From a virus: a stretch of 64,000 bases of DNA. Under the pieces are notes generated by a model, which saw only the letters and a list, made by a program, of their open reading frames with translations, was not told where the DNA came from and made no database searches. The DNA is taken from positions 26,774-90,773 of IMG/VR virus record IMGVR_UViG_3300031576_000019. One strand, given 5' to 3'. Of the stretch, positions 26,560 to 64,000 are shown piece after piece (positions within the stretch are counted from its first letter, which is position 1; each line of letters opens with the position of its first letter). The translations under genes and the position numbers were made by a program.

Positions 26560-28032
26560 TCAAGCCAAATTATCAAGAGTAAGTCTAAGCTCACCTTGCA
26601 TGACATAAACAGCCGGTAGAGCCGTTCTTATAATATCAATCGCCTCTCCCAGATCCCCATCAAAAAGACCGGGCGCGCGCAGAATCTCCAGCGCCTCATC
26701 AATATCCATACTCTCAAGGGCCTCGTTGGTAATCAGATTCAAGCCCGCAATTTCAGCCCTGAGCGCCTCGGCTTTGCGCGACTTCTCTTTCACTTGGTCT
26801 TCTAAGACGACGCGCGCACCCTGGAATACCAGCGATTCAATAGACCTGGAAAACCCCGCAATCTCGTTATCCAGCATGGCAAGTTCTCCTTGCAGACGGG
26901 TCAGACCCTTGGCGGTTTCCGGTCCGACGCTAAAAGAGTCGTCGGCATAGTACGCCTCCAATTCTTCGCGCGTTACACTCCTAAACATATCTTCCAGGGC
27001 CTCCACAATTTTGTGCTCATACATTGAATTGGAGACATGAGGAATCTCCATCCCCGAATTCCGGGAGGCTACCCGGTTGAGGTAATGGGCGCACCCATAA
27101 TTAGGAATACTCCGACCCCTAATCCAGCTGACTCCCCCTCGCCGCATCGGGCCACCACATAAGCCACAAAACAAAAAGTCCCGGAAAGGAGAACTCTGCC
27201 ACCGGCCACGCGGGTGTTCACGCCGACGCCGAGCAATCTCCAATTCCACCCTTAGACAAGTCTCGGCATCCCACATCTTGGGATGCCGGCCAGGAGACAG
27301 GACTCCGTTATAGACCGAGAAACCCCTATACCAAGGGCTATTGATAATCCTCGTCACATGGCCGTATTTGAGTTGACGGCTACTTCCAGGCGGGAGCGGC
27401 AAGCGCCGCCATATTTCAATGTAGGACATGCCAGACAATAGATACTCGGCCAGCGTAGTAAACCACATTCGCCAGCCCTCATCAATGACATACCCCACCG
27501 TCTTTCCAGAATCATCCCGGACACTGTTGTAGCCAATCGCGCCGTTCCCGCCATGGTGCATCCCGCGTTTAGCTCGCCCCTCATGGCCCATTCGTATCCT
27601 GTCCCGGATTCGATCCAGTTCCATCTTGTTGACTGCCGCTAAAAGGTAAAATGTCCGCAGGTCAAAATTACCGGAAACCAGGATAACCTGTATGCGTGTC
27701 TGTTCAAGCATATCCCCAAATGGAACGGCGGGCCGCACTCCCCGACACAGCCGATCATCCGTCCTGGCATAGATCAACTCATACTTCTGAGCGTAGCCGT
27801 CTGCAATCAGACGCAGAAACTCCGGTCGATCAGCCCGCTCACCCCCTGGTTCTACCCAGCGCCTCCCCACTCGATAGCGCTTGTTGTCCACATACTGGTC
27901 AATAATTTCTACCCCATCCCTGATCGCACGCTTGCGCGAGTCCTCCAGCTGAACCGGGATGGAGACTTTATCCTCCCCGCCCTGTCCCTCGCTGTCACTT
28001 ATCCTGGCGTAGACAACGCCTCTCTTGCTCAT
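26560..28032 (-). CDS. Large serine recombinase (integrase)
   Basis: 490 residues. Catalytic domain: VVYARISDSEG with the nucleophile Ser at about 12, and YARTDDRLCRG (about 88-98), equivalent to the DRLSR motif. Then the recombinase domain (IINSPWYRGFSVYNG), a zinc ribbon with CGLCGGPM and a later YGCAHY, and a coiled coil (about 375-440) needed for directionality in this class. The gene starts behind GGAGG supplied by palindrome copy 28042. It should integrate the phage into the host chromosome, the main sign of a temperate life style. Confidence 0.92.
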   Translation of the reverse strand: MSKRGVVYARISDSEGQGGEDKVSIPVQLEDSRKRAIRDGVEIIDQYVDNKRYRVGRRWVEPGGERADRPEFLRLIADGYAQKYELIYARTDDRLCRGVRPAVPFGDMLEQTRIQVILVSGNFDLRTFYLLAAVNKMELDRIRDRIRMGHEGRAKRGMHHGGNGAIGYNSVRDDSGKTVGYVIDEGWRMWFTTLAEYLLSGMSYIEIWRRLPLPPGSSRQLKYGHVTRIINSPWYRGFSVYNGVLSPGRHPKMWDAETCLRVELEIARRRREHPRGRWQSSPFRDFLFCGLCGGPMRRGGVSWIRGRSIPNYGCAHYLNRVASRNSGMEIPHVSNSMYEHKIVEALEDMFRSVTREELEAYYADDSFSVGPETAKGLTRLQGELAMLDNEIAGFSRSIESLVFQGARVVLEDQVKEKSRKAEALRAEIAGLNLITNEALESMDIDEALEILRAPGLFDGDLGEAIDIIRTALPAVYVMQGELRLTLDNLA

Positions 28033-30900: not shown

Positions 30901-32325
30901 TCAACTCAATTTCCGTCGCCGTATATGTTTCTCCAGCGCCCCCAGGGTGGGGTAGAGCACATGGCGCGCGCGCTTGGAATAGTCCAATTCCAATCCAGCG
31001 ATAAGAACACCGGTCGCCAGTAGTGAGTCTACGTCGGGCCGGAAGCCCTCGGTCGGCCCACCAGACAGCGGATTCACAAATTGTGGATCAAGGGCCTTGC
31101 TGTTTGCATGCGCGTCAAGGGCTGGGATACCATTCGGCCAATTGTTTGGGCCAATGGTTGTCCAAAAGGCTTGATCGCCACCTAAGTCTAGTGAGTTCCC
31201 ATCCGCTCCTTTGGCAATGGTGTTGTAGCGCAGGATACCACCTGAGGGGTCAGGTCGTCCCACTGCAACCAGGTCAAAGTCAATGGAATACAGGAAGGGT
31301 TCAGTAATAGTGTTGTACTCAATGGTCACGTTGGCCCAGGTATTACCGTTGTTGACGTTAGCCGCGCTATGCCAATAGTGAATCCCACGCCCACACTTGG
31401 CCAGAATGTTGTTTGAGACAGAAATCTTATAAAGTGTCCCATCCCCATTGGCCTCATTGGCCATCATCACACCATGCGCGGGTCGAGCATCCCGATAGTA
31501 GGTCGTATTGGTAGAGTAGCAATAGTTGTCCTTGATGGTGACGTAATCCGTCGTCACGCCCTCCTCGCACGGCGCATCAAGATAGAAGCAGGTGCTCCAC
31601 ACATCATGGATGATGTTTCCAAACGCCGAGCCAGTGCCGTGATAGAAGTTGATGCCCTCACCCCACGACAGGGAAACGTTGTTACCCGTAATTAGCCAGC
31701 GCCGCGAAACATGCCCATCTGGCCAGTTGAAGCATGAGATGACGCTGGCCCAGCCACTTCCACCGAGGGCATTGTTCTCGTTCTCCATTACACAGTTGTA
31801 AAGGCGGTTCGAGATAACGGCAATATCGTCGCCGCTCCCGCCAATAGCCCGCCGTTCGATTTCAAACAGCGTATTATTTGATATGATAATGCAGGCGCAG
31901 GATGTAACCGAAATGCCCCGCTCGGTTGAGTTCTTGAATGTCATTCCGTCCAGGATGCAATAGCTGGCTGACGAGAACCGCACCAGTGAATCGTTGGCCG
32001 CCAGCGTTGCCGAAACTCCGTCAATAATCACTGGCCCGTCTCCGGCCGCCTTGAAGATAACCCAGGCCGTCACTGTTCCTACCGAGGTAATCGTCTGCAT
32101 TCCCGAAGGCGTATAAGTCCCGCCATGCACCAGTATCACCGTCCCCGCCCCCGCCACCTGACTCGCCTTCTGCAAAGTTGCGTATGGCGCGGCCAAGCTG
32201 CCGATACCTGTCGTGTCGTTCCCTGTCCCCACCCCGGGCGGCGGGGATGAAGTTGGAGCGACGTGCAACTCAACGGGTATCGGCAGGCCACCCCCTTCGC
32301 CAAACAAAATTAATTGAACTAACAT
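30901..32325 (-). CDS. Right-handed beta-helix tail spike-like protein
   Basis: 474 residues. After a short strand-rich N-terminus, GTVILVHGGTYTPSG is the first coil of a pectate-lyase-like parallel beta-helix, with repeated turns such as SVTSCACIIISNNTLFEI, SVSNNILAKCGRGIHYW and VTIEYNTITEP. Such proteins bind or degrade surface polysaccharide. No lyase or hydrolase residues can be fixed by eye. Confidence 0.75.
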   Translation of the reverse strand: MLVQLILFGEGGGLPIPVELHVAPTSSPPPGVGTGNDTTGIGSLAAPYATLQKASQVAGAGTVILVHGGTYTPSGMQTITSVGTVTAWVIFKAAGDGPVIIDGVSATLAANDSLVRFSSASYCILDGMTFKNSTERGISVTSCACIIISNNTLFEIERRAIGGSGDDIAVISNRLYNCVMENENNALGGSGWASVISCFNWPDGHVSRRWLITGNNVSLSWGEGINFYHGTGSAFGNIIHDVWSTCFYLDAPCEEGVTTDYVTIKDNYCYSTNTTYYRDARPAHGVMMANEANGDGTLYKISVSNNILAKCGRGIHYWHSAANVNNGNTWANVTIEYNTITEPFLYSIDFDLVAVGRPDPSGGILRYNTIAKGADGNSLDLGGDQAFWTTIGPNNWPNGIPALDAHANSKALDPQFVNPLSGGPTEGFRPDVDSLLATGVLIAGLELDYSKRARHVLYPTLGALEKHIRRRKLS

Positions 32326-41800: not shown

Positions 41801-43024
41801 GGCCAGCGCCAAGGTGCCCGAAGGCGAAGTACCTGTCCCTGGTGAATTGTGGGTGATTTCCAGAACATCTGCGCTTGGCACCACCAGTTTGCGTGTTGCA
41901 TTGTCACCAGTCTCGTCCAGAATAGTTGTGGTGTCCGTCCGATAGACGCGCACCATCCCCACACAGTAGAGATAATTTCCAACTTGGTGTATCTTGCCCT
42001 TGATTTCTGTGGCTGTGATGGGCAGGCCAAACTCAATAAAACTATCCCGATCCAGGGCGGTCCAATCAACACCGTTGGGGGAGTGTAACAAAACTTCCAT
42101 TTCGGGTGAGTACCCATTCTGGTTGTCCCGCTTAATACGAGCCGTCAAAACAATTTTGCCATTGATAATTGAGGCCCGACAAGGGTAAAACTTGGTATAT
42201 TCGTCGGGGAAGATGGGACGCGGATCGCCCCAGTTGCCCTGATAGCACGACACCGCATAATGACGATTCGTGTTGCCCTGACTGTAAATGATCAATGCGC
42301 CGCCTTTTGCCAATCCGTCTGTGTCAGGCAACGGCACAGCATCAAAGAAGGTGGTGCTATAGAAGCCTGCTCCCGTCGCCAATGGAGGAAAGGTCGTAGT
42401 GCCATAAATGCGGCGCGGCATCTCCGAAGTGCTCCATACCCCGCCCGCCAATACCACCCGTTCAACACGTACCGCCCATCCATAGATTGAGCAGACATAC
42501 AGCTCGGCGGTGGTGGCCGAGACGGCCACAGGCGCAATCGTGTAGGACGAACTTCCAAAAGCAAGATTCAAGAGCACGGCAACAGTCGGTGCGCTCCATG
42601 TGACCCCATCATCCACCGAAGTCTTGAAGTTAAGGAACTGTCCACTCGCATAATAGAGATAGATCGTTCCATTGGTCGCCTGAATGAGTCCTGGATTACA
42701 GTAGTTTTGAGTGGTAGTGGCCAAGTTGGTCCAAGCCACTGTCCAGTTGGAGGCAGTGCTGGGCGTGACCACGCGCTGGACGTGCAGACCCACCGTTCCG
42801 GTATAGGCGCGTAGAATCGTGCCCGCCTGAGTAGCCAAACTGTCTCCATAGCAAAAACGCTCTCCCAGTGTGGTCACCTCGTCGCCTGGAAGACCAAAAG
42901 GATTACTGGGAGTAATGGCAAAGAAATCCCAATCCATTAGCGTGTTCCGCACAGTTACGCGCGCTAATGGATAGCGATGATTGGCCAGTCCTGCATCTTT
43001 GAGAGTAGTGCTTATAGTTCTCAT
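38813..43024 (-). CDS. Tail tip/baseplate protein with propeller-like region
   Basis: 1,403 residues. Repeated strand blocks in the first 370 residues (for example WSAPTVAV, GVTWSAP-like Asp-box turns) resemble sialidase-type beta-propellers. A carbohydrate-binding-like sandwich lies near 540-690, and a second near 1130-1230. The C-terminus (about 1250-1400) looks like a tail hub with VMGIRQMSRSTAAQAADMAT. Located between tape measure and fibre genes, so it probably caps the tail and holds fibres. Enzymatic activity is not established. Confidence 0.65.
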   Translation of the reverse strand: MRTISTTLKDAGLANHRYPLARVTVRNTLMDWDFFAITPSNPFGLPGDEVTTLGERFCYGDSLATQAGTILRAYTGTVGLHVQRVVTPSTASNWTVAWTNLATTTQNYCNPGLIQATNGTIYLYYASGQFLNFKTSVDDGVTWSAPTVAVLLNLAFGSSSYTIAPVAVSATTAELYVCSIYGWAVRVERVVLAGGVWSTSEMPRRIYGTTTFPPLATGAGFYSTTFFDAVPLPDTDGLAKGGALIIYSQGNTNRHYAVSCYQGNWGDPRPIFPDEYTKFYPCRASIINGKIVLTARIKRDNQNGYSPEMEVLLHSPNGVDWTALDRDSFIEFGLPITATEIKGKIHQVGNYLYCVGMVRVYRTDTTTILDETGDNATRKLVVPSADVLEITHNSPGTGTSPSGTLALANGDGTYLNHAIVKKGSEVQIELGYKTTAGDEYVTVLQGVIGGVERATSAGQETLRLDLRDRLFTRLKDYKSPVYRALNSQLKHFDPCDLMDSLYVVHGDSWIAMAANMAGGNTGFEAPLYNAEWSQYDTGATGTYGFNPDQYYSGSYSMRISKTGGATTANFGVSRSLPAVLKDTAYTIEVKIHITAIAGGAKTIRLEAGGNWGVAGAAASVVVDQTDVTTEWATLSTGFTPSVDSATGNYVRIFFDDASTGTCYIDDLSLIPNVSGTLNYSSQTVDGIAFSTSPNETEDFDISAKVSFRGTVTAESSSVGLIGLGVDNKNFLVFRITKGTTNNLLFQRCRDGIYTSIAIASATVSVNVNYRMRFVHTGGKFRCYLTTDATTLMNWGLPKITQDWVDSTLPGGQSLQLICPSDNGKGKVGVFARIAPLNFYSYGLDKMSNTIALRVYGDSRWSEVPSSGYVQIEDEEIYYGAKTTYSNVPDMNDTGFAWAAERLPGEVWFPQAIEGYDHRVDLKVTTPTNPNDEVFGYKNYAVTFPECAIPGITYRIDLTTYALPGQNIEYPAGATLRVHCASNIPDVAESPSRRIFGDPETMTANIAPCLYNCVRGWGDTSPVAHPDQALAFTFCDEFVQLESFMALDYVPDENIESVLTRTTYMAGARLPTFGSAYSLTSSTSTSAIQAASLTRKDFTAHFTSAPIATGNWVSLRFRANSNSTGLVMRIENTSGTYYCRLYQNTDFTNYVESHTLPTDIIGASSFVLIRVVATGNFITVYVNNAHAATFYTTLFNASALNYIYFQQATGTLYNLRVPELDMRRDGFSIDNDVAGLQLIGNAIQDRPIKYFSKSGGSLYFSVFDTRDVLNTLTTTTLRDSDSENITEAVSFLRIYADEIVEVMDPGLMADYGFVMGIRQMSRSTAAQAADMATRMFREIKESIETHGMEVGAILNIENEDKVVISYTLVATSRAVLKTVIVNGYDFTFSPGNLSLTIGSRKFIS

Positions 43025-43461
43025 ACGGTCTGCTCAAAGGTAATAGTGATGTAGTACCAAGCGAGTGTGCCCGTTAAGTTATAGGTCACGTTTTCTACTG
43101 AAAGGTCGCCGGTGAGGAAAATACTTACACTATCTCCGATCCCGTCACCGTCTGTGTCCACGTTGGAGAAAAAGGTGATGATGGTTGAAGGTGAACCGTT
43201 GGGATTGCTATAAGCGAAGAAGCTCTCTAAGTCGGCCCGCGTGCCATAGTTTGAGTCCAGCTCCGTGTGGCGCAACTTGACGGTCATTTGCCACCGCTTC
43301 ACAATCGGCCCGTACTGCACATCAGCATCCCCAGTTAGAGCGCGGGTGACCGTCTGTATCTTGGACTGAATCGGCAAAGGGCCCGCCAAGACCCTCAGGC
43401 GTTTATCCAAAGTGCTGGTTGAATTGCGAAACCGACAATACGCGAGTGTGGACGCGGCCAC
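43021..43461 (-). CDS. Tail protein, 146 aa (distal tail-like)
   Basis: GTG start behind AGGAAAGGACTG. Strand-rich throughout, ends LAWYYITITFEQTV. Lies between tape measure and tail tip, where distal tail proteins are coded. Overlaps the tail-tip start by 4 bases. Confidence 0.55.
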   Translation of the reverse strand: MAASTLAYCRFRNSTSTLDKRLRVLAGPLPIQSKIQTVTRALTGDADVQYGPIVKRWQMTVKLRHTELDSNYGTRADLESFFAYSNPNGSPSTIITFFSNVDTDGDGIGDSVSIFLTGDLSVENVTYNLTGTLAWYYITITFEQTV

Positions 43462-43530
43462 AGAAACAGTCCTTTCCTATAGAAAGTTTAGCGATTGCTA
43501 TTCATCTGTAGTCTGTATCTTGGGGCAAAG

Positions 43531-44262
43531 CTAATCTTTGGGGAAGTTCAATTTTGCTTTTGAGCCACGTAATTCTTTGGCCATGGCGTCGTAGGCGTGG
43601 GCGGCCTTAACGGGGTCGGTGAAATGGCCCAAGAAGATGTTCTTTCCGTTTTTCTCAATGCCACATCTCCAAGCATTGTTTCTTCCACCCGCCCAAGAGA
43701 CACCTCTGTAGCCACTGGTGTTGTTGGAAGGAATTGTGGAGTTCCTCTTCTGAGGAGCCTCGGAAACTTGGTCGGGGAAATTGAGGACGGCCCATTGACC
43801 ATGTAGTTCGCGGGCGGCTATATCATAAGCACGAGCGGCTTCTTCGGGCGTATTAAACACACCGAGATGATGGTACTTGTGGTTGGCGGTAATGCTTGCC
43901 TGCCACGCCTTGTTATTCAGATATACGCCTTTGTAACCGCTAATCGTATGCTGTCGTCCTCGTCTGTTTTGCATATTCTGGCATTGGGTTGCTAGACGGA
44001 GATTGTCACGGCGGGTATCAAGGGTATTTCTGTTTTTGTGGTCAACCTTCTCAGAACTCAGAAGCCCTCGATCCAACATACGTTCCATAACAAGACGGTG
44101 CAAAGATTTCTTTCTCCTCTTGCCCATCTCGTATCTTTGTGTAATCGCGTAAATGTGCAGTCCATTTGATGTGTATGGACACCATACAAGTTCGCATAAA
44201 TCCGCATCCTCATCATCTATCAAGAAGGTAAACGGAGTATTTTGAGTGAGTATCTCAACCAT
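43531..44262 (-). CDS. HNH homing endonuclease with two AP2 domains
   Basis: 243 residues. HNH core: LHRLVMERML and VDHKNRNTLDTRRDNLRLAT (about 54-92). Then two AP2-type DNA-binding domains, each beginning SGYKGV or SGYRGV and ending AxLNFP (about 108-165 and 180-240). A mobile intron-less homing gene inserted between tail genes. It is a selfish element, not a virion part. It ends NFPKD; a matching remnant lies at 53671. Confidence 0.88.
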   Translation of the reverse strand: MVEILTQNTPFTFLIDDEDADLCELVWCPYTSNGLHIYAITQRYEMGKRRKKSLHRLVMERMLDRGLLSSEKVDHKNRNTLDTRRDNLRLATQCQNMQNRRGRQHTISGYKGVYLNNKAWQASITANHKYHHLGVFNTPEEAARAYDIAARELHGQWAVLNFPDQVSEAPQKRNSTIPSNNTSGYRGVSWAGGRNNAWRCGIEKNGKNIFLGHFTDPVKAAHAYDAMAKELRGSKAKLNFPKD

Positions 44263-44268
44263 CTCAGC

Positions 44269-44316
44269 CTCTGTTTGCTATCTGTTTCATTAGGAGTAAA
44301 ATATGAACATGGAAAC
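44269..44316 (+). repeat. 48-bp repeated leader, copy A
   Basis: Identical to 53417-53464. It includes GCTATCTGTT, AGGAG and the first codons MNMET of a mini membrane protein. Confidence 0.9.
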
Positions 44317-44413
44317 AATCATGCCATACCTATGTATGGGCTTTGTTCTTCTAATTTCGCTCGTCGCTATTGTGGGCGCAATGGCCTTGCTTGGAAAAAT
44401 TATGCACGGCTAG
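44303..44413 (+). CDS. Mini membrane protein A, 36 aa
   Basis: ATTAGGAG ribosome site 7 bases upstream. MNMETIMPYLCMGFVLLISL then a continuing hydrophobic helix to GKIMHG: one membrane span with a short charged end. Paralogue at 53451. Too short to assign; a small holin, antiholin or superinfection protein is possible. Confidence 0.7.
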   Translation: MNMETIMPYLCMGFVLLISLVAIVGAMALLGKIMHG

Positions 44414-44651
44414 AACACTCATCATTCTCACCCAGGATGGCGCATAACAGCGCCATCCCCTCCCATAACTTCGGGAAGTCTCGGTCAGCAAGAGGTACGC
44501 CCTTCTTCGGAAACGTCTGGCGGGCCAAGTCGAAATGGCGGCGAGCCGTCTGCAACTCGCTTATCTCCCGCGATGAGTTCCACTCTCTGAAGTGCTGGAG
44601 TCCTGTGTCGCCCAGGGCAAAAGAAGCCTCGGCAGTAAAAGTAGTCTTCAT
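44400..44651 (-). CDS. Small helical protein, paralogue of 16190 gene
   Basis: 83 residues, CAGGAGACAAAC ribosome site. DRDFPKLWEGMALLCAIL resembles the end of the protein at 16190-16417. Transcribed from a TTGACA/TACTAT promoter divergent from the RHH gene. Its last codons overlap the mini membrane gene on the other strand. Confidence 0.6.
   Translation of the reverse strand: MKTTFTAEASFALGDTGLQHFREWNSSREISELQTARRHFDLARQTFPKKGVPLADRDFPKLWEGMALLCAILGENDECSSRA
44435..44458. other. Hairpin after mini membrane gene A
   Basis: GGATGGCGC and GCGCCATCC, 9-bp perfect stem, 6-nt loop, inside the leftward 83-aa gene and 21 bases after the stop of the rightward gene. No T-run. A decayed version follows the second mini gene near 53612. 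Confidence 0.5.
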
Positions 44652-44687
44652 GTTTGTCTCCTGTATGGGTTGGCCGATAATCTGCCC

Positions 44688-44763
44688 ATAGTATCACACA
44701 CATCATTGTGTGTCAAGACACACAATGAGTTTCATTGACAAAACCTGTATGTTAGTGCATAAT
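44688..44763. promoter_or_regulatory. Divergent promoters with 11-bp dyad operator
   Basis: Rightward TTGACA (44735-44740), 17 bp, CATAAT (44758-44763). Leftward TTGACA (44716-44711), 17 bp, TACTAT (44693-44688). Between and over them, TCATTGTGTGT and ACACACAATGA (44703-44728, 4-bp centre). A natural operator for the adjacent RHH protein. Confidence 0.85.
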
Positions 44764-44770
44764 GACACAT

Positions 44771-44965
44771 ATGCCTACCCGAGTGAGAATTCCATTTTCG
44801 ACAACCCTTGACCCCGACATCTTGGATGCGGCACGAGCAAAGTCAGAGGAAACTGGCCTGCCACTATCTACGGTGGTTGAGAGATTTCTGGCTCACTGGG
44901 TCAATGGGGGTTCTGTCCCCCCCAAGCAGGCGGTAGAGAGAGGACATCCACCAAGATCAAAATAA
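44771..44965 (+). CDS. Ribbon-helix-helix regulator, possibly leaderless
   Basis: 64 residues from ATG 44771. RVRIPFSTTLDPDILDAARA, then LPLSTVVERFLAHWV, is a ribbon-helix-helix DNA-binding domain. The -10 box ends 7 bases before this ATG and no ribosome site exists, so the mRNA probably starts at the codon. The ATG at 44762 lies inside the -10 and is unlikely. Probably represses its own and the divergent gene through the dyad. Confidence 0.75.
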   Translation: MPTRVRIPFSTTLDPDILDAARAKSEETGLPLSTVVERFLAHWVNGGSVPPKQAVERGHPPRSK

Positions 44966-44975
44966 CTCTACCCAA

Positions 44976-44999
44976 TCCCTCCAAGTTGGAGGGATTTTT
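44976..44999. terminator. Palindrome-based terminator
   Basis: The dispersed palindrome (core 44978-44992, symmetry 44976-44994) followed by TTTTTG ends the RHH transcript. It abuts the tape-measure stop from the other side. Confidence 0.75.
44978..44992. repeat. Dispersed palindrome in terminator
   Basis: Exact copy, intergenic, serving as terminator stem. Confidence 0.9.
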
Positions 45000-45000
45000 G

Positions 45001-48000
45001 TTAGAGCGCGCTCTGACGACGAAGCGTCTTAGCTTGCCGCCGCTCAATCCTGGCCGCAATCTGATCACCGTCCAGAATAACATAAACATCGCCATATCCG
45101 CCATTTCCCTCCAACTTGGAGGAACCAGGGCGGGGAAGGTCAGGGGGTTGACTATTCAGGGGGTAAATCGAAACATATTCATCCTCATACTCGCCTACTC
45201 GAAGCAGTTGGTTTTTGGTTGCCAAGAACTGACGGCCCGAAGCAACTGGAATAGCCTCTTCGCCGCCACTATTTGAACTACCACCCGTAGCGGGCGGGAC
45301 ATAGTTCGGTGGGTGAGCCACATTCGCGGCATCTTCCAGACTGGCATTACCCAGCCACTGGAACATATTCCACAGCCAGTCACCGACGCCATTGTAGAAC
45401 TTGGCCGAGGTGTCCATCATATAGCGCAGGCCAGCTTCGTTCTCGCCCTGTTTTCGGCCAAGTTCTGTGGCGGCCGCTTGGGCATCTTTCATTAGTTTGG
45501 CATAGTGTAGACCGGAACCAATACCCGCCAGCTGGTTCTCCTGCTGGAGCTTCCAATGCGTGCGCTCCAGGTTTCGCTGTTCATCCTCAATCGCTTCGCT
45601 CTCCGCCAGCCAGCCCCGCTGTGCCGCAATCCGGTCAGACTCTAACGCCTGATTTTCATAGAAGTTTCCCTTTTCCATGTCCATGCGTTGCATCGAGAGC
45701 TTGAACATTTCCTCTGACCGGTTCTGTTCAACCGCTAGACGCTCCACCTGGGTCTTGAATTGTTCCGCCGCCCGGACGGTTTCAGTCTTGTAGCGGTCAT
45801 CCTCATCCTTCCACAACTTGCGCTGTCGTGACTCAACTTTGTTTTGCTGTGTCTCCTCGGCGTTGTGGTCAAGGGTGGTGCGCTTCTTTTGCCTTTCAAG
45901 TTGACGCCGATCCCGGCCCGTCGAGAAACGGATGTCCTCATCAATATCCTCCATCGCCCAACCAAAGTGCTGTTGGTTTTGACCGCGCTGGAAGGCAAAG
46001 TCTTGTGATTGCCAGTTGCGTGATTGGGCGCTTTGCATCCGACCAAAGGAGAAATCCTCTAACTGATAGCCCCGTTGAAGGTTGACCTGCTGGCCCCGGA
46101 AGGAGAAATCTTCTTGTTGCCAACCCTGTTGTGTCACAGCCTGGGCACGGTTGAAGTCCCAGCCAGCCTGGAATTGTCGGCCACGCATCTCTAGTCCGCG
46201 CTGAGAGAAGGCTAGATTACCTTGCGCCTGAGTCCGTTGGAGTTGGGTTGACTCATCCTGTAAGGCCCACATTCCACGGCCTTCCTGAATGGCCGAGGCG
46301 GTGCCGCCATTGATGGACCAGGGTAAAGCCTCGCCAGGTTTATAAACTGCACTCCCAGCATAAGCACCCAGTCCCTGTCCTGTCGTAAAGGCCATCCCAA
46401 TCTTTACGCCTCGAGCCGAGATACCAGACGAGGCCGCTTGTGACTGGTATGACAAGTCACTCATATAATCCTGCAGCCCCCACATACCACCATAGGTTTG
46501 GCCAACCGCATTTGGCTTGCCCTGACCCACTAGGGCCGCCTGAACCGGAGCAGAGAAATTCTTGAATGACCCCGCGATCAGCGGACTGACCTGCCCACCA
46601 GCACTCAAAATGCTATTGGTGAATAGGCTCATACCTGCCGAGCCGGTCCGCCCACCCGTCTGGTTGGTCACCCATGAGCCTGGCCCACCCATTTGAGCGC
46701 CCGCCATACTCATCGCATTGGCATTGCCTGACAATACACCCTGGGCGATGAGAGCTTCTTGGGGAGTGGCATTCCTCATCGCAACGGCTAGGTCGGCGGC
46801 CCCCTGCTCACCCATAAACTGTCCTAAGCGACCCCGAACATTCTCGCCCAGACTGCGCTGATAACTCGAAGCACCAGACATGGCTAGAGCGTAGGACTTG
46901 GCTCCCGCACCACCCAGGTCAAGCGCCGAAGCCTGAAATAGCTGGCCAAAGCGGCCGGCCCGCTGGGGGTCCTCGGCTAAGAGATTGGAAAAGTTATCTA
47001 CATTCGCAAGCCCCTGTCCTTCCAGCATTGAACGGATAGATTCAAAGCGGCCTCGTTGCACCATTCCTTGGCGACCCAAACCATAGGCGGTCGCATCACC
47101 CTCTGCTGTTCCAAGATCGGCCTGCTTGGTAAATTCAGTTATTCCGCTCCACTTGAATCCGCCTGCTAGTCCCTCCTCTAATTGCCCAAATATACTTTCT
47201 ACCAAACCATGAATAAACTTATCTCGACCAGCCAATTCGCCGGACCGAATTGCTCGGTCAAAGTTCACCTCCTGACCCTCCATCGCCAATAAATTCTCCA
47301 TCCCCAAGCCGCGCGAAGCCGCCCTCATTTGTTCGGGTGTGTATTTTTCAAGAGCGGCATAGGATTTCTGATAGGCCGTATCCATGCTGCCGCCAAGTCC
47401 GGCCTGAAGTTGTTCTGCGAACTGTTCGGGGTCGACGCCTGCCTGCATAGCCCGGAGAATTTTTTCCTCAGTCCCCTTCCAAAACTCTACTGGGGATTCT
47501 TCGCCTCCCTTGCCAGGGCCACGCCAAGCATCTGGGCCCTGCATATAATTCTGGGCTCGTGCCAGACGGGTAGAGATGCCCACGGCTACATCTTCGTCCA
47601 CACCCAAGCGAGCCATCGTGGATTCGTATCCACCAACGCCCGTTACCGCCCGTTGACGCATATAACGCGCACGATCCTCATACGACATTCCCGCCAAATC
47701 GAATTGCGACATCCCCGCCGCCACCTGCGTCTCCTCACCCACCATTTGTTGCGCGCCCGCCGATTGGCTAAACAACCACTGCCCAACTACTCCGCCCCCC
47801 AGTGCATCTCCCAAGCTCAACTGTCCAATACCCTTGTCGCCACCGTAGGTGTTATAGAGCATCTCGTTGAAGTCTTTGGGACTCTTTACATAGTGCGAGG
47901 CAGCACTCATTGCGCCAATACTGCTCGTAACTCCTCCCGCGATAACTCCAGCTGGAATAGCAAGTGGGCCCAGTATTGGCGCGGTCAACATGCCCGTCGC

Positions 48001-51000
48001 AATACCCATCCCAACGCCAGGGCCAAGAACTCCACCAATAACCGAGGCCATATTGTTTCCGCCCATCCCAGATACACCACTGACTACATCGCCCCATGTG
48101 TTGGCCATTGCGTACTGAACCCCCGCTTGCGCTTGTGCAAACTGACCAGCATAGCGTGATGTGGCCAGTCCCGTTCCCCCAAAACCAAGACCGGCCAGTG
48201 CCTGTCCAATGCGTGTGTTAGATTGAGACTGGCCAGACAATGCCTCTAGTGCGGGAGCTGTGACCTGCTGCATGGTCCACGGGAGGTACTGCGCCGACAT
48301 TAGCGCCTGACTCGTGCGATTAAGTTGGGCTAGTGGAGAACGGTCGGACATCGCTTCCGCTTGTGACACCGCCTCACCACTCAAAATACCCGCATCGCTC
48401 AGGCGCTTGGCAAATCTCTCGAGACTAGAGGCATCCGAGCGAGTGCCAGTGGTGGCACCCAAAAACAATTGACGACGCTCCATTTCCATCTCACGGTACT
48501 TCTCAGCCACTTGGGGTGAGACAGCCCCCAGTCGCATCTCAATTGCTTTAGCCGCAGAAGGATAGGCGTCTTTGCTAAAATCCAAATTCCCCCCTGCGAC
48601 ATCGGCCATGACCCCGACCCCGACACCATGCTTTTCGAGAAATTTTCCTTGCTTCTCTGTTAAATCCACAAGCCGGTCCTGATATTTGAGCTGTCGGGCC
48701 TGCACATAATTTAGCCGTTCTCCGGTTTCGCGCATGTTTCTAAAAGTAGCCGTCAGTTCTGTGGATTCCTTTATCATCCCGCCCATGTCTGCCTTCGCAA
48801 AGGCTTCTCCCGCTTGAGCCAGAGTCATCTTGGCTGTCTTGGCCCCACCCGGTCCGCCGCCTGCTTTGCCAGCCCGATAATCGGCAAAGCTCTTTTTGAC
48901 GCTCTCTTCCGTATCGCCCAGCGCCTCCGGTCCGTGTTCCAAGAACCACGCCTTTTCCCCACTATCGTCGGATAATTTCCACGGATCGATGGAAGAAACG
49001 ATATTTTTTAGCGAGCCCATTACACTCGGCTCGGACAGACGACCCGGTGCCTGGAGGGCTCCCCGAATTTTATCGAATGCCTTAAGGGGAACGCTATCGC
49101 GGGCAAACGACCCCTCGGCCCCCCTCATGCCCATCAAGTCCATCGTTGAGAAGTCACCTGTTTCGGTCAGACTCTTAAGGGCCTGAATCATCCGGGTCGT
49201 TTGTTGTGGACCCAGATTCATTTCGTTTAGAGCGTTTTGTTCGGCCTGCTCCTTCATAGCGTATTTAGAATACGATGCCGTTGCCTGAGCCACCTTTGGA
49301 ATAAAATTAGGGTCAGTCGGGTCGTAGAGAGCCGGATTAATAAACGACTGGCCCTGACGGAAACGCTCTGCCCCACCACCCACCTTCTTCTCGGCCTCCG
49401 ACACCATTCGTCTAGCCTCATCCGGTGACATCTTCTCCAGGTTGCGAAGATGCTTGGCCTCGGTCGGCATAATTTTGGCTAAGAGTAAATTGTCTGGATT
49501 TCCCAGTGAGGCATTGGATAATTTGGGAATGGCAAAGTTCAACTTCTTGGCCCAAGTTGCCAGCGTATTGTGGCCGAACATTGTCTCGCCCTTGACGGGA
49601 TAATCTCCAGTCGCGCGAGGATTGATCGCCATTCCGGTCAACCTCCCAAATCGTTGAAGGAAGTCCTCCGCCTGTGGCGCTACAATCATATTGGCCAAGG
49701 TGTTGGGCAGGTCAATCCTGTTCTCGCCCGGTTCAGGCTTGCCGCTATAAAAGCGCACCGTTTCATGGAGGCGCATCCCAAACTCGGCCCAATCAGCGTC
49801 CTTGTCTCCTAAGGGCGCTTTCTCGATCTTCCAGCGCGCGGCCGCCATGGCTTTGATAGCCGTTGGTAAAGTTCCCAACTGTCCCGCCTCGCCCCATGGA
49901 TCACGGCCCAGGACTATTCCCATTGAATTGGCAATCCAACCCGCCTTCTTCGAGGCATCCATCCCCTGCGCCTTGGCGAGTTGTGTCCGTAAGAACGCTT
50001 GTTTCTGTGGGTCATTAATAACCAGTGGAACAAGAGCTGAGGCGTCAGAAAACTCGGGAGCCGTCATCAGCGCTGTCAGCGCATCGGTCATACCCGCATT
50101 TCGGCCACCACCAGCAGCCTTGGTCATAATGCCCGAAACCTTCTCGCCCGGCTTGGGCGCTACGCCCGCTGTAGCCGGTTGCATCCGGTCACGCACAGCC
50201 ACGAGTTTCTCAAAGGCCCCCGAAAAGGCTTCGCTATCCAGCATCTTTTGATAAGCCGGAAGTACAACCTGATTGAACTGGTCTTGTCCGCCCGATAGAA
50301 CAGACAGCACGCGCCCAAAGTTGAACTCTTTGCCCATACCCGCCTTGTACTCCAGCGTCTCGGCCAAAGCCTTCTGAACCGCCTCGGGAGTTGTATGTCC
50401 AAAGGTTCCCAGTTTGTCAACCATCCCCAGCATAGAGGTCTTCAATCTCTCAAAGTCATATTTGCCGGTACTTTTATCAAATCCCCACTCCCGCGCATCT
50501 TTGGCCCACTTGTTGATTTCTTGGGTGCCGAGACCAGAGAACTTCTCGTCCATGAGTTTCTGGCGATTTACAACCTCGTCCGAACTCATCCCTGGCCGAA
50601 TGCCGTTGGCCCGGACCACAAATGCGCGGCCAGTCCGCTGAACACTCAATGCGCCAATACCCGAAATGCCAGACGCATCCGGGTCAAAGTCGCCGATGTT
50701 GATAGACTGAACCTCTTTGTTCAACAAAATCCCGTCGGGGAGATTTGAGGGTGTCACTCGCAAATTGAGCAGGTTGGCATCCGAAATGTTGGGGTTGCGC
50801 CAGGTGTAAGCCCCCACGTTGTTTTCGCGCAGGTAACTCTTAAGCGCCAGAAGTTCCGGGGGTGTCCGAACTTTGAACATTCGCATGAGTTGGGCATCTC
50901 CCAACCGCATCTCGTTAATTGGAACATCCTGAACGCCCGGAAGCGCAGATACCGGACCACCGGTGGCGTTCCTGGGATAGAAGGATGTCAGCGCCTTGTG

Positions 51001-53364
51001 TGTACCCTTTGAGCCATACATTTCTGCCACAGAAGCGCGATGCTTCTGTACCAGTTCAATGGGCACTTCCTGACCCGTCGCCTTGAGCATCAACATCTCC
51101 AAGGCGCTGGTAGCATAAGTGGAACTGTCATTTTCCAGGCCAACAAAACCATCGTCATTGGCCAAGTCTTTTCCCATCCCGCCTCCCAAGGCATAGCGCA
51201 GGTTGCGAACAGATGGCAAGGGGAGAGATTGTTTCACACCGTTCTCAGTATAGGTCATCATAAGTGGCGACCGCGCCTGATGGCGCATGTCAGCCTTGCT
51301 TGCCCCGTTCATCTCTCCCAGAAAGCCCATGGCCGATTCAAGACCATCCAGGAATTCATGTGGCGTAGGAGTTCCCGATCCAGCGTGTCCCTGTAAGGCA
51401 CTGGACAGAGCGGCCTCTGGTAGTTGGGAGGCGTCTAAATCAATCCCGCGCCGAGGCGTGATATTGGGAGCACCGGACATGACTGCCCCAGCGTTGATGA
51501 TCTCGCCGTAAATATCCTGCTTGCCTATACTCTGGCGACTCAGTTGAGAAAATGAACGCGGGTCAGTCTTTGCCATACGCATGGCAACTTCCATTGACAC
51601 CTTTCCGGTTGACCATGGCCAAGCACCAGAACGTGAAAGGGTCTTGGCAAATGGCATTGACATGACCTGTTGACCAGCCGCATTAGTCTTAGCTGAGTTA
51701 CTAATGATGTAGCGTGCCGCCTGTTGAATAGCGGGCAAGTTGGATTCCGTCCATTGGGGAGCTCCGGTCGAGGGATCAATGAGCGCGGCTAGGGCCGGAT
51801 GGTCCCACCCCTCGCGTGCGCCAAAGCCCTCAATCATTGACTGAACACCTGCCAGTGGATTCTTGAAAAAGTCATTGGGTGAAACAGCAAAACCTTGGAA
51901 GCCCCGAGGAGCAAATCCATAGTTTTGTTCGTGGTGTGCCACAAAGACCTTGCTCCCCTCGTGGAACAAGCCATAGTTCCCCTCACCCACTCGTTGTCGG
52001 ACAGCGGTTTCGAGGAAGTCGCGCATCCCACCTTCAATCCGCCGAGTGGCGCCCACCTGTGTCTCATCCCAACTACCCGTACTTCGCCCAAAATGTGGAA
52101 CAGGTGTATCTCGGCCCCCGACTGTGCCCCGCCAGAAACGCTCATTCTTGAATTGGCCCGCCATCCCGTGTGTGCGCCACGCCGTCTGCCGTTCAAGCGA
52201 AACCTGCTGGCCAACCGAAACACCCATACCCGCGGGCATGGATGGATCAAACAGAATGTTGAAGACCTGCGCTTGTCGACCAGTAACGGGTGAACCATCC
52301 GGCGCATATTCCACAATTCGCGTATTGATTTCAGGAACGCTCAGCCTCCCGCCCGTCATACCTCGACCCACATCCCGGTAGCCCGAGACTTGCATGTGTT
52401 TCATCATCTTCATCTCATCACCGGGCTTCTTGTAATTCAGATAACTCACTCGCCCCCTTGAATCCCGCGATGACATCATCCCCTGATAAGTCATTTGCCC
52501 GGTATCAAATCCGTAGACATCATTTGGGTTCCGTGTCCCAAGTGGCGAGCCATCGGAAGATGCGAACTGACCACTCAGATCAGGATTGACCAAGTTTCGC
52601 TTATTGAAGATGCGGTCATTAGGATTTTGGGTTTCGGGGAAGAATTGGGTTGAAGCGATACGCCCCAGTCGGTAGTTACTTTGTGGGGTAAAGGGGTCAA
52701 CATATTGGCCCTCACGCTGTCCAGCCACAAATCGTGGGCCACTCTCTGTCTGACCTGGAGTAGACATCGCCTTGTAGTGTGCGCCCACATCTCTTAATAC
52801 CAGCCGACGCAGAGTATCGTACTGTGTCTCGCCAGGCTCGGATACGATTGATCTTCCGCCTAAATGTAGCCCGCCCGTCGAATCGCGCCAGAGACGCATA
52901 TCCATTCGGTTCTGGCCAGCGATGTTGACCGTTGCATACGCATCCCCGCCCATGGATTTTTGAGGTGGCAAACGCAGGGAAACATCTGCGCTTGGAAACT
53001 TTGCGCGTAAGTCGGCTTCAAGTTTTCGCACCAAGTCGTTGGTGCTGGTCGGCTTGTAACGGTCACTTGTAGACGGGAAAGCATCAAAGCCTGTATCAGC
53101 ATCATCAGGCTCAAGCATCCCCTCATCTTGAATGGGCTGGAAACGAAAAGGGACTTGTGGAATGCGAGATTGCTGAACTCGTGGTGATTGCTCGTACCCC
53201 CCATAATGCGCGTCCGTAGACAACCGCGAGTTAAGGCTTTGGTAGACGGCATCGTAGAGAGTTGGCGGTACCTCACCACGCTCAAAAAGTTCGGCCAGCT
53301 CAGAAAATGCGGTTGTAGGGTTTTGGGCGAGATGCGCTGTCAGACGCTCGGTTGTCCAAGACAT
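45001..53364 (-). CDS. Tail tape measure protein, about 2,787 aa
   Basis: ATG 53364 has GAGAGG upstream; a TTG at 53382 is the only longer start. The length, Gln/Ala/Gly-rich helical sequence, a central hydrophobic stretch (about 1,900-1,960, GVLGPGVGMGIATGMLTAPI and following) and a long Arg/Gln/Glu coiled region (about 2,420-2,690) are typical. Position downstream of paired chaperones confirms it. At about 0.15 nm per residue a tail near 0.4 micrometres is expected. Palindrome 45108 lies near the C-terminus, read as SKLEG. No peptidase or transglycosylase motif is evident. Confidence 0.85.
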   Translation of the reverse strand: MSWTTERLTAHLAQNPTTAFSELAELFERGEVPPTLYDAVYQSLNSRLSTDAHYGGYEQSPRVQQSRIPQVPFRFQPIQDEGMLEPDDADTGFDAFPSTSDRYKPTSTNDLVRKLEADLRAKFPSADVSLRLPPQKSMGGDAYATVNIAGQNRMDMRLWRDSTGGLHLGGRSIVSEPGETQYDTLRRLVLRDVGAHYKAMSTPGQTESGPRFVAGQREGQYVDPFTPQSNYRLGRIASTQFFPETQNPNDRIFNKRNLVNPDLSGQFASSDGSPLGTRNPNDVYGFDTGQMTYQGMMSSRDSRGRVSYLNYKKPGDEMKMMKHMQVSGYRDVGRGMTGGRLSVPEINTRIVEYAPDGSPVTGRQAQVFNILFDPSMPAGMGVSVGQQVSLERQTAWRTHGMAGQFKNERFWRGTVGGRDTPVPHFGRSTGSWDETQVGATRRIEGGMRDFLETAVRQRVGEGNYGLFHEGSKVFVAHHEQNYGFAPRGFQGFAVSPNDFFKNPLAGVQSMIEGFGAREGWDHPALAALIDPSTGAPQWTESNLPAIQQAARYIISNSAKTNAAGQQVMSMPFAKTLSRSGAWPWSTGKVSMEVAMRMAKTDPRSFSQLSRQSIGKQDIYGEIINAGAVMSGAPNITPRRGIDLDASQLPEAALSSALQGHAGSGTPTPHEFLDGLESAMGFLGEMNGASKADMRHQARSPLMMTYTENGVKQSLPLPSVRNLRYALGGGMGKDLANDDGFVGLENDSSTYATSALEMLMLKATGQEVPIELVQKHRASVAEMYGSKGTHKALTSFYPRNATGGPVSALPGVQDVPINEMRLGDAQLMRMFKVRTPPELLALKSYLRENNVGAYTWRNPNISDANLLNLRVTPSNLPDGILLNKEVQSINIGDFDPDASGISGIGALSVQRTGRAFVVRANGIRPGMSSDEVVNRQKLMDEKFSGLGTQEINKWAKDAREWGFDKSTGKYDFERLKTSMLGMVDKLGTFGHTTPEAVQKALAETLEYKAGMGKEFNFGRVLSVLSGGQDQFNQVVLPAYQKMLDSEAFSGAFEKLVAVRDRMQPATAGVAPKPGEKVSGIMTKAAGGGRNAGMTDALTALMTAPEFSDASALVPLVINDPQKQAFLRTQLAKAQGMDASKKAGWIANSMGIVLGRDPWGEAGQLGTLPTAIKAMAAARWKIEKAPLGDKDADWAEFGMRLHETVRFYSGKPEPGENRIDLPNTLANMIVAPQAEDFLQRFGRLTGMAINPRATGDYPVKGETMFGHNTLATWAKKLNFAIPKLSNASLGNPDNLLLAKIMPTEAKHLRNLEKMSPDEARRMVSEAEKKVGGGAERFRQGQSFINPALYDPTDPNFIPKVAQATASYSKYAMKEQAEQNALNEMNLGPQQTTRMIQALKSLTETGDFSTMDLMGMRGAEGSFARDSVPLKAFDKIRGALQAPGRLSEPSVMGSLKNIVSSIDPWKLSDDSGEKAWFLEHGPEALGDTEESVKKSFADYRAGKAGGGPGGAKTAKMTLAQAGEAFAKADMGGMIKESTELTATFRNMRETGERLNYVQARQLKYQDRLVDLTEKQGKFLEKHGVGVGVMADVAGGNLDFSKDAYPSAAKAIEMRLGAVSPQVAEKYREMEMERRQLFLGATTGTRSDASSLERFAKRLSDAGILSGEAVSQAEAMSDRSPLAQLNRTSQALMSAQYLPWTMQQVTAPALEALSGQSQSNTRIGQALAGLGFGGTGLATSRYAGQFAQAQAGVQYAMANTWGDVVSGVSGMGGNNMASVIGGVLGPGVGMGIATGMLTAPILGPLAIPAGVIAGGVTSSIGAMSAASHYVKSPKDFNEMLYNTYGGDKGIGQLSLGDALGGGVVGQWLFSQSAGAQQMVGEETQVAAGMSQFDLAGMSYEDRARYMRQRAVTGVGGYESTMARLGVDEDVAVGISTRLARAQNYMQGPDAWRGPGKGGEESPVEFWKGTEEKILRAMQAGVDPEQFAEQLQAGLGGSMDTAYQKSYAALEKYTPEQMRAASRGLGMENLLAMEGQEVNFDRAIRSGELAGRDKFIHGLVESIFGQLEEGLAGGFKWSGITEFTKQADLGTAEGDATAYGLGRQGMVQRGRFESIRSMLEGQGLANVDNFSNLLAEDPQRAGRFGQLFQASALDLGGAGAKSYALAMSGASSYQRSLGENVRGRLGQFMGEQGAADLAVAMRNATPQEALIAQGVLSGNANAMSMAGAQMGGPGSWVTNQTGGRTGSAGMSLFTNSILSAGGQVSPLIAGSFKNFSAPVQAALVGQGKPNAVGQTYGGMWGLQDYMSDLSYQSQAASSGISARGVKIGMAFTTGQGLGAYAGSAVYKPGEALPWSINGGTASAIQEGRGMWALQDESTQLQRTQAQGNLAFSQRGLEMRGRQFQAGWDFNRAQAVTQQGWQQEDFSFRGQQVNLQRGYQLEDFSFGRMQSAQSRNWQSQDFAFQRGQNQQHFGWAMEDIDEDIRFSTGRDRRQLERQKKRTTLDHNAEETQQNKVESRQRKLWKDEDDRYKTETVRAAEQFKTQVERLAVEQNRSEEMFKLSMQRMDMEKGNFYENQALESDRIAAQRGWLAESEAIEDEQRNLERTHWKLQQENQLAGIGSGLHYAKLMKDAQAAATELGRKQGENEAGLRYMMDTSAKFYNGVGDWLWNMFQWLGNASLEDAANVAHPPNYVPPATGGSSNSGGEEAIPVASGRQFLATKNQLLRVGEYEDEYVSIYPLNSQPPDLPRPGSSKLEGNGGYGDVYVILDGDQIAARIERRQAKTLRRQSAL
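45108..45122. repeat. Dispersed palindrome in tape measure gene
   Basis: Exact copy, read on the minus strand as Ser-Lys-Leu-Glu-Gly, only 116 bases from the previous copy. Confidence 0.9.
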
Positions 53365-53416
53365 ACAGATACAACCTCTCAAAAGAGGGGGATGGGGTGA
53401 ACATATCCTTTGTAAT

Positions 53417-53464
53417 CTCTGTTTGCTATCTGTTTCATTAGGAGTAAAATATGAACATGGAAAC
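53417..53464 (+). repeat. 48-bp repeated leader, copy B
   Basis: Identical to 44269-44316. Similarity continues weakly past the gene to the hairpin region (CAGCGCCAT). Confidence 0.9.
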
Positions 53465-53576
53465 TACGTTGCCCGAAATGATTGCCATCGCAATATGTTT
53501 CGGGTTTGTGTGGGTGATCGTGATGGGAATCCTGGCTATCCTGATGGCCCTTGTCGGAAAGGTCATCAATGGCTAG
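53451..53576 (+). CDS. Mini membrane protein B, 41 aa
   Basis: Same AGGAG leader as copy A. MNMETTLPEMIAIAICFGFV, then WVIVMGILAILMALVGKVING: one membrane helix. Opposite in direction to the tape measure and chaperone genes around it. Shared start MNMET and G-K-I/V-M/I-x-G end show common descent with copy A. Confidence 0.7.
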   Translation: MNMETTLPEMIAIAICFGFVWVIVMGILAILMALVGKVING

Positions 53577-53622
53577 AACTCTCGTTACGCTTACCAAAGA
53601 TTTGGCACAACAGCGCCATTCT

Positions 53623-53637
53623 CCTCCAACTTGGAGG
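53623..53637. repeat. Dispersed palindrome, intergenic
   Basis: Exact copy; symmetry extends to 21 bp (53620-53640, TCTCC and GGAGA flanks). Confidence 0.9.
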
Positions 53638-53670
53638 AGATGAGAGGTTGCTATTCTTTTGAGGGCCAAT

Positions 53671-53720
53671 CTAATCTTCGGGGAAATTCGCCAAAATGCT
53701 TCTTGGCACGCTTGGAAACA
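53671..53720 (-). pseudogene. Remnant of AP2/HNH homing endonuclease 3' end
   Basis: On the minus strand AKKHFGEF is followed, one frame off, by NFPED and TAG. AP2-type homing enzymes typically end in GEFAxLNFPxD, and the last 18 bases differ at two positions from the end of the gene at 43531. Very short, so tentative. Confidence 0.35.
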
Positions 53721-53738
53721 ATCTCAAACAGGGGTTAT

Positions 53739-54026
53739 TCACCCCTGTTTATTCAATTGGCGTTGTGCTTTGGAAAACTCCATTACATTCATAAATGCAA
53801 TCAAGCATACCATTTGCATATAGAACTGGTCATTTAGCCCGCCACTCTCGGGTAGCGTGTGAAATTTCTCAACCTGTTCAGCGAGCGCCCACAGGGACGG
53901 GAAGGGGATTTTAGGGAGAGGGCCAACATTCTCTTGGAAGCGGCCAAGTTCAGCGGTGTATCGAAGCACCTCGTCCTGAATATGCTCGGTAATCTCCCCG
54001 ATTATTTTCCACCGTCTGGCCCCCAC
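53739..54026 (-). CDS. Tail assembly chaperone, frameshift-extended part
   Basis: 95 residues in the -1 frame relative to the gene at 54002. The only start is a GTG at 54026 with no ribosome site, so it is better explained as the T-part of a G-GT pair made by ribosomal frameshift near 54005-54010 (GGA AAA before TAA). Helical, located just upstream of the tape measure. Ends just before the endonuclease remnant. Confidence 0.6.
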   Translation of the reverse strand: MGARRWKIIGEITEHIQDEVLRYTAELGRFQENVGPLPKIPFPSLWALAEQVEKFHTLPESGGLNDQFYMQMVCLIAFMNVMEFSKAQRQLNKQG

Positions 54027-54430: not shown

Positions 54431-54503
54431 TGTAGCGTCTCCTATGAAATATGGACATAGTAACGTGGGGGAGTCTAGACTCCCCCACGTTCTTTAGAAC
54501 AAG

Positions 54504-63826: not shown

Positions 63827-64000
63827 TTAGGCGGTGGTCGGAATTGAGAATGCGTAGTCCGCCCACTCCTTTGGAACGGTCTGATCAATAAACTGCACAA
63901 AGACAACATCATTGTTCATCTCGGTCGCCGAGAGCGTCACCAGCACGCCCGCTTTCCCAGAACCATCCGCCACCGGCAAGGTGCCCAAATCGGTGTAGAC
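63827..64000 (-). CDS. Structural-type protein, partial (right edge)
   Basis: Frame open on the minus strand from the window edge to TAA at 63827-63829, next to the ATG of the solenoid gene. The 57 visible residues (VYTDLGTLPVADGSGKAGVL..., ending DYAFSIPTTA) are strand-rich. Start and size unknown. Confidence 0.6.
   Translation of the reverse strand, partial: VYTDLGTLPVADGSGKAGVLVTLSATEMNNDVVFVQFIDQTVPKEWADYAFSIPTTA

Follow-up and report, generated by a model that had tools for sequence, protein, structure and literature searches.

The locus lies between two minus-strand genes of a temperate phage, one encoding a 146-aa tail protein and the other a tape-measure-like protein, and comprises a homing-endonuclease-like gene, a 36-aa ORF, P0002 and a gene for a ribbon-helix-helix (RHH) protein, together with a divergent pair of predicted promoters, a candidate operator and a predicted terminator (Table 1). 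The window analyzed here covers the final 64,000 bases of an IMG/VR phage record 90,773 bases long. The same 127 bases stand at the start and the end of the record (direct repeat; window 63874–64000), which gives it the appearance of a complete genome, probably circular or circularly permuted. The structural genes are located on the minus strand, and 26560–28032 encodes a large serine recombinase that matches phage integrases. The GC content of the record is 0.529, with local values of 0.42–0.50 in places.

Table 1. Coordinates of the islet and its features (window numbering; promoters, operators and terminator are predictions).
Feature	Position	Strand	Remarks
Moron islet, 1,539 bp	43462–45000		Between tail gene 43021–43461 (-) and tape-measure-like gene 45001–53382 (-)
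HNH-AP2 homing-endonuclease-like gene	43531–44262	-	PHROG 99, E 3.4e-55; Pfam AP2 and HNH_3
36-aa membrane-protein-like ORF	44303–44413	+	Paralogue of 53451–53576
P0002, 83 aa; Shine-Dalgarno AGGAG; downstream of leftward promoter	44400–44651	-	No family match
Leftward promoter, TTGACA-17-TACTAT, TG (extended -10) before the -10	44716–44688	-	10/12, 17-bp spacer
Operator candidate, dyad TCATTGTGTGTC-AA-GACACACAATGA	44703–44728		Two perfect 12-bp arms, 2-nt centre
Rightward promoter, TTGACA-17-CATAAT	44735–44763	+	11/12, 17-bp spacer
Possible weak second operator	44755–44769		Over rightward -10; 11/15 match to dyad core
RHH (Arc-like) repressor gene, 64 aa; no Shine-Dalgarno, probably leaderless	44771–44965	+	PHROG 3180 and sequence
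Intrinsic terminator of RHH gene, hairpin and U-run	44974–44996	+	Copy of dispersed palindrome CCTCCAASTTGGAGG

To place the locus among related phages, we collected relatives through the terminase: the single-sequence query returned one viral record, and a search with a two-sequence terminase alignment added 15 new viral loci among the 16 it returned, as well as one short genome contig. Tail and portal queries gave no viral relatives, and capsid and terminase queries gave none in phages. Synteny was compared in ten stretches, five of which (G002, G010, G008, G006 and G016) contain an orthologue of the 146-aa tail gene as judged by BLASTP. In all five, the start of the tail gene overlaps the tape-measure stop codon by 1–4 nt, whereas 1,539 bp separate the two genes in the window phage; the four intervening genes therefore form an islet that, by this comparison, is absent from those relatives, and the simpler reading is that it was gained in the lineage of the window phage. 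The tail-gene orthology is supported pairwise (34–36% identity, E 2e-24 and 4e-27), and pairwise comparison also supports orthology of the distal tail protein and, over part of its length, of the tape measure. Three further stretches (G001, G013 and G011) carry a 141–145-aa ORF 3–26 nt on, with no detectable similarity to the 146-aa gene; in G003, 145 nt lie between the tape-measure gene and the next ORF of at least 90 aa, and the G014 stretch ends short of the tape-measure gene.

The RHH protein matches the Arc-like repressors of PHROG 3180 (E 4.9e-6), and its gene is the only match to this family in the record. The Pfam RHH_3 match scores 16.7 bits, under the cut-off of 21.6, no RHH_1 match is found anywhere in the record, and the RelB/ParD-type matches are weak (E 0.038 and 0.13, falling far short of the cut-offs). 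A single-sequence structure model of low confidence (pLDDT 63) places helices at residues 15–28 and 32–44, where they would be expected, and the N-terminal strand is absent from this monomer model; a structure search with the model returned weak matches, among them CopG, Arc and VapBC. Judged by the features of the family, a strand with two helices and a profile match, the protein is predicted to belong to the RHH (Arc/CopG/MetJ) superfamily. The codon score of the gene is -0.06 per codon (z 1.7), not clearly like that of the large genes of the phage. No relatives of the gene were found in viral_contigs or genome_contigs, searches with the RHH protein and P0002 in phages gave three weak partial matches (E 0.07–0.3), and P0001 gave one weak match among the 17 relative records (E 0.08, within a 401-aa frame of a 7-Mb genome). 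A PDB sequence search yielded one irrelevant match (E 1.4).

P0002, the divergently oriented neighbour, has a codon score of +0.11 (z 3.1), like the large genes of the phage. It has no family match in Pfam, PHROGs or NCBIfam, and no relatives in viral_contigs. We also compared P0002 with the tail-chaperone-like ORF at 53739–54026, to which it aligns with a pairwise E of 0.001 (7 of 3000 shuffles were equally good); a paralogous relationship was rejected, as the profile comparison gave a probability of only 0.2%.

The original prediction described consensus-type -35/-10 pairs in both directions with 17-bp spacers, and these we found, scoring 11 (rightward) and 10 (leftward) out of 12 against a sigma-70-like consensus. 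Sites of at least 10/12 number 12 in the window, compared with a mean of 5.45 in 40 order-1 Markov sequences of 64 kb each, and none of these 40 controls contained a divergent pair as good as this one whose -35 elements start within 60 bp of each other. The further statement, that the window has no other fully consensus host-type promoters, does not hold: no site, these two included, reaches 12/12, and three others reach 11/12 (14426 +, 30904 - and 61960 -). That both are working promoters is a prediction from their sequence. The start codon of the RHH gene falls where the same prediction had placed the start point of transcription: the ATG at 44771 sits 7 nt past the rightward -10. An alternative in-frame ATG, at 44762, overlaps the -10 and would not be included in a transcript starting from this promoter, which leaves 44771 as the only start codon that fits. 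No Shine-Dalgarno sequence precedes either ATG, compared with an SD-like motif of at least four bases in 75 of the 110 listed genes of the record (a rough, codon-based list whose choice of starts favours such motifs), and it is therefore plausible that the RHH mRNA is leaderless.

The dyad does cover the leftward -35 (44711–44716), as had been claimed, with arms of 12 bp, one longer than the 11 bp first given. It ends 6 bp short of the rightward -35. Perfect arms reached at most 10 bp in six order-1 Markov controls of the 90.8-kb record. The operator core has five matches at up to three mismatches in the window against 5.5 expected, two of the five being the dyad itself; since the window holds no additional copies beyond those expected by chance, the putative switch looks local. 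The exact operator does not occur in viral_contigs. The possible second operator is not significant, since 358 of 5000 controls match equally well.

The RHH unit ends just ahead of the tape-measure stop codon, at a hairpin and U-run that agree with the predicted terminator built from a palindrome. This palindrome, CCTCCAASTTGGAGG, is dispersed over the record in 25 exact copies, with four more at one mismatch and two at two, and the reversed pattern, used as control, gives one. At up to three mismatches the window holds 21 matches against 1.9 expected; the exact copies are at 2047, 4332, 8335, 14184, 15438, 18076, 20333, 28042, 34635, 44978, 45108, 53623, 59390, 60214 and 63373, and 10 more precede the window, in the record's first 26.8 kb. 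They occur inside genes, after stop codons and in ribosome-binding regions, for example the one preceding the integrase start at 28032. Within listed genes, 11 of 13 copies lie in the frame that reads S-K/N-L-E (matched by hand), a sequence easily borne by protein, and this suggests that the site is maintained at the DNA or RNA level. CCTCCAASTTGGAGG is a candidate for an operator or RNA element acting genome-wide. No exact copy occurs in the 17 relative records, two of which share one match with one mismatch. Rfam reported nothing above gathering scores; a Phe_leader match over the terminator hairpin (E 0.35), below the gathering score, was taken as chance. A second palindrome family, TGTGAATAATTATTCACA, is found at 14 sites when up to four mismatches are allowed, against none in each of three controls. 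Nine are in the window (5156, 8843, 14807, 16469, 17859, 20301, 30858, 35024 and 58557) and five upstream of it; six of the 14 lie 0–15 nt upstream of a listed gene start, and one directly follows the 11/12 promoter at 30904 -, an operator-like position. Binding of the RHH protein to these dispersed palindromes is unsupported, their sequence and half-site spacing being, by eye, unlike those of the dyad.

The arrangement resembles several known systems. In the PRM/cI unit of lambda, the repressor ATG lies at or near the start point without a Shine-Dalgarno sequence, and the operator is placed between divergent promoters. The RHH unit shares these features but differs from PRM/cI in that its protein is not of the helix-turn-helix type, in its single strong operator, and in its appearance as a local rather than a master switch. 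P22 Mnt also acts between divergent promoters, shutting off ant while its own promoter stays on, and by analogy the RHH protein may shut the leftward promoter while keeping its own transcript on. An account of P22 (PMC2629481) describes mnt and arc as part of a moron located next to the tailspike gene, an islet missing from some relatives. The present locus is like this immI region (the ‘ant moron’: mnt, arc, ant and sieA) in having an RHH repressor in a late-operon islet beside a tail gene that some relatives lack, and unlike it in having one RHH gene instead of two (Mnt and Arc) and P0002 as partner in place of an ant-like antirepressor. We do not class it with immI, because no antirepressor was recognized and only a single Arc-like gene is present; nor did the analysis detect any sequence kinship to P22. 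Moron loci are characterized, according to another source (PMC7067206), by a gene that has its own promoter and runs antisense to lytic genes. Like the morons of temperate phages outlined there, the islet consists of genes added between late genes that adjoin in relatives, antisense to lytic genes and with what look like their own promoter and terminator; unlike them, its cargo is a regulator, presumed to be expressed in the lysogen, with a divergent target. The RHH cassette closely resembles the classic moron cassettes known from other phages.

Based on the operator/promoter anatomy, the PHROG 3180 match and the insertion between late genes, the autonomous RHH switch proposed for this tail cluster is well supported, and we consider it probable that the locus is a moron islet that carries a local RHH switch. 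The P22 precedent, the integrase encoded in this genome and the Shine-Dalgarno sequence and codon use of P0002 also speak for this reading. A leaderless or near-leaderless RHH mRNA would start at the rightward promoter and stop at its own terminator before the tape-measure stop codon. RHH dimers would then bind the 26-bp dyad and occlude the leftward -35, so that the leftward promoter would be shut and P0002, perhaps with the HNH gene, would be off in the prophage. Because the dyad is upstream of the rightward promoter and not on it, RHH synthesis could continue from a promoter left free, or even helped, by the bound protein. At high protein levels, the possible weak operator over the rightward -10 may lower synthesis by autorepression; in lytic growth, late transcription reading through from the tape-measure gene would run antisense across the RHH gene and could reset the unit. 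The codon use of the RHH gene, the low-confidence structure, the weak fold matches, the non-significant second operator and the failure of the searches to find relatives of the RHH gene or P0002 count against this scheme.

Codon use is also one of the points that would fit a decaying moron remnant next to a homing endonuclease, with no working switch, the other being the presence of the HNH-AP2 gene within the islet. Decay would not be expected to preserve a perfect dyad, intact promoters and terminator and an open reading frame, and we regard this explanation as unlikely. The small size of the RHH protein and its weak RelB/ParD-type matches, together with the small neighbouring P0002, could instead suggest the antitoxin and toxin of a type II toxin-antitoxin pair; but the two genes are divergent and do not share an operon, the terminator follows the RHH gene, and P0002 matches no family in Pfam, PHROGs or NCBIfam, which makes such a pair quite improbable.

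A wider role for the RHH protein, as the master lysogeny repressor of the phage and not a local switch, would suit a record with no HTH_3 (CI-like) match in which the RHH gene is the only Arc-like match. However, the operator core is not found above chance elsewhere in the window, and the two dispersed palindromes look like better candidates for genome-wide operators, so that we hold a master repressor to be very doubtful. The bolder proposal of a new, immI-like bistable switch made up of the RHH protein and P0002 is also an unlikely one; here the unrelated 83-aa protein would serve as antirepressor or exclusion factor, and, with no CI-like repressor recognizable, the main immunity would act through one of the dispersed palindromes.

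If the local RHH switch is real, it would represent the Mnt-in-late-operon solution in a phage group with no detected sequence kinship to P22, in the form of a compact, leaderless unit open to testing. The locus would also be a clear example of a moron inserted at a tail-gene junction that is otherwise fixed. If the dispersed palindromes define an immunity system acting across the genome, as they could, that system would outweigh the switch in importance. No published description of this locus appeared among titles and abstract openings (moron with ribbon-helix-helix and tail; the Mnt/immI/P22/Arc literature), a result that does not prove its absence from print.

The tape-measure gene is preceded by a second, smaller insert at 53383–53738, which holds a 41-aa membrane-protein-like ORF (53451–53576); the matching gap in four relatives ranges from a short overlap to 34 bp. 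This ORF and the 36-aa ORF of the islet are 41% identical (E 1e-8). The paralogous plus-strand ORFs flank the tape-measure gene, at 44269–44413 and 53417–53576 with a 48-bp identical leader. Separately, a perfect 30-bp palindrome, AACGTGGGGGAGTCTAGACTCCCCCACGTT, is located between the tail-tube gene and the next gene (window 54462–54491).
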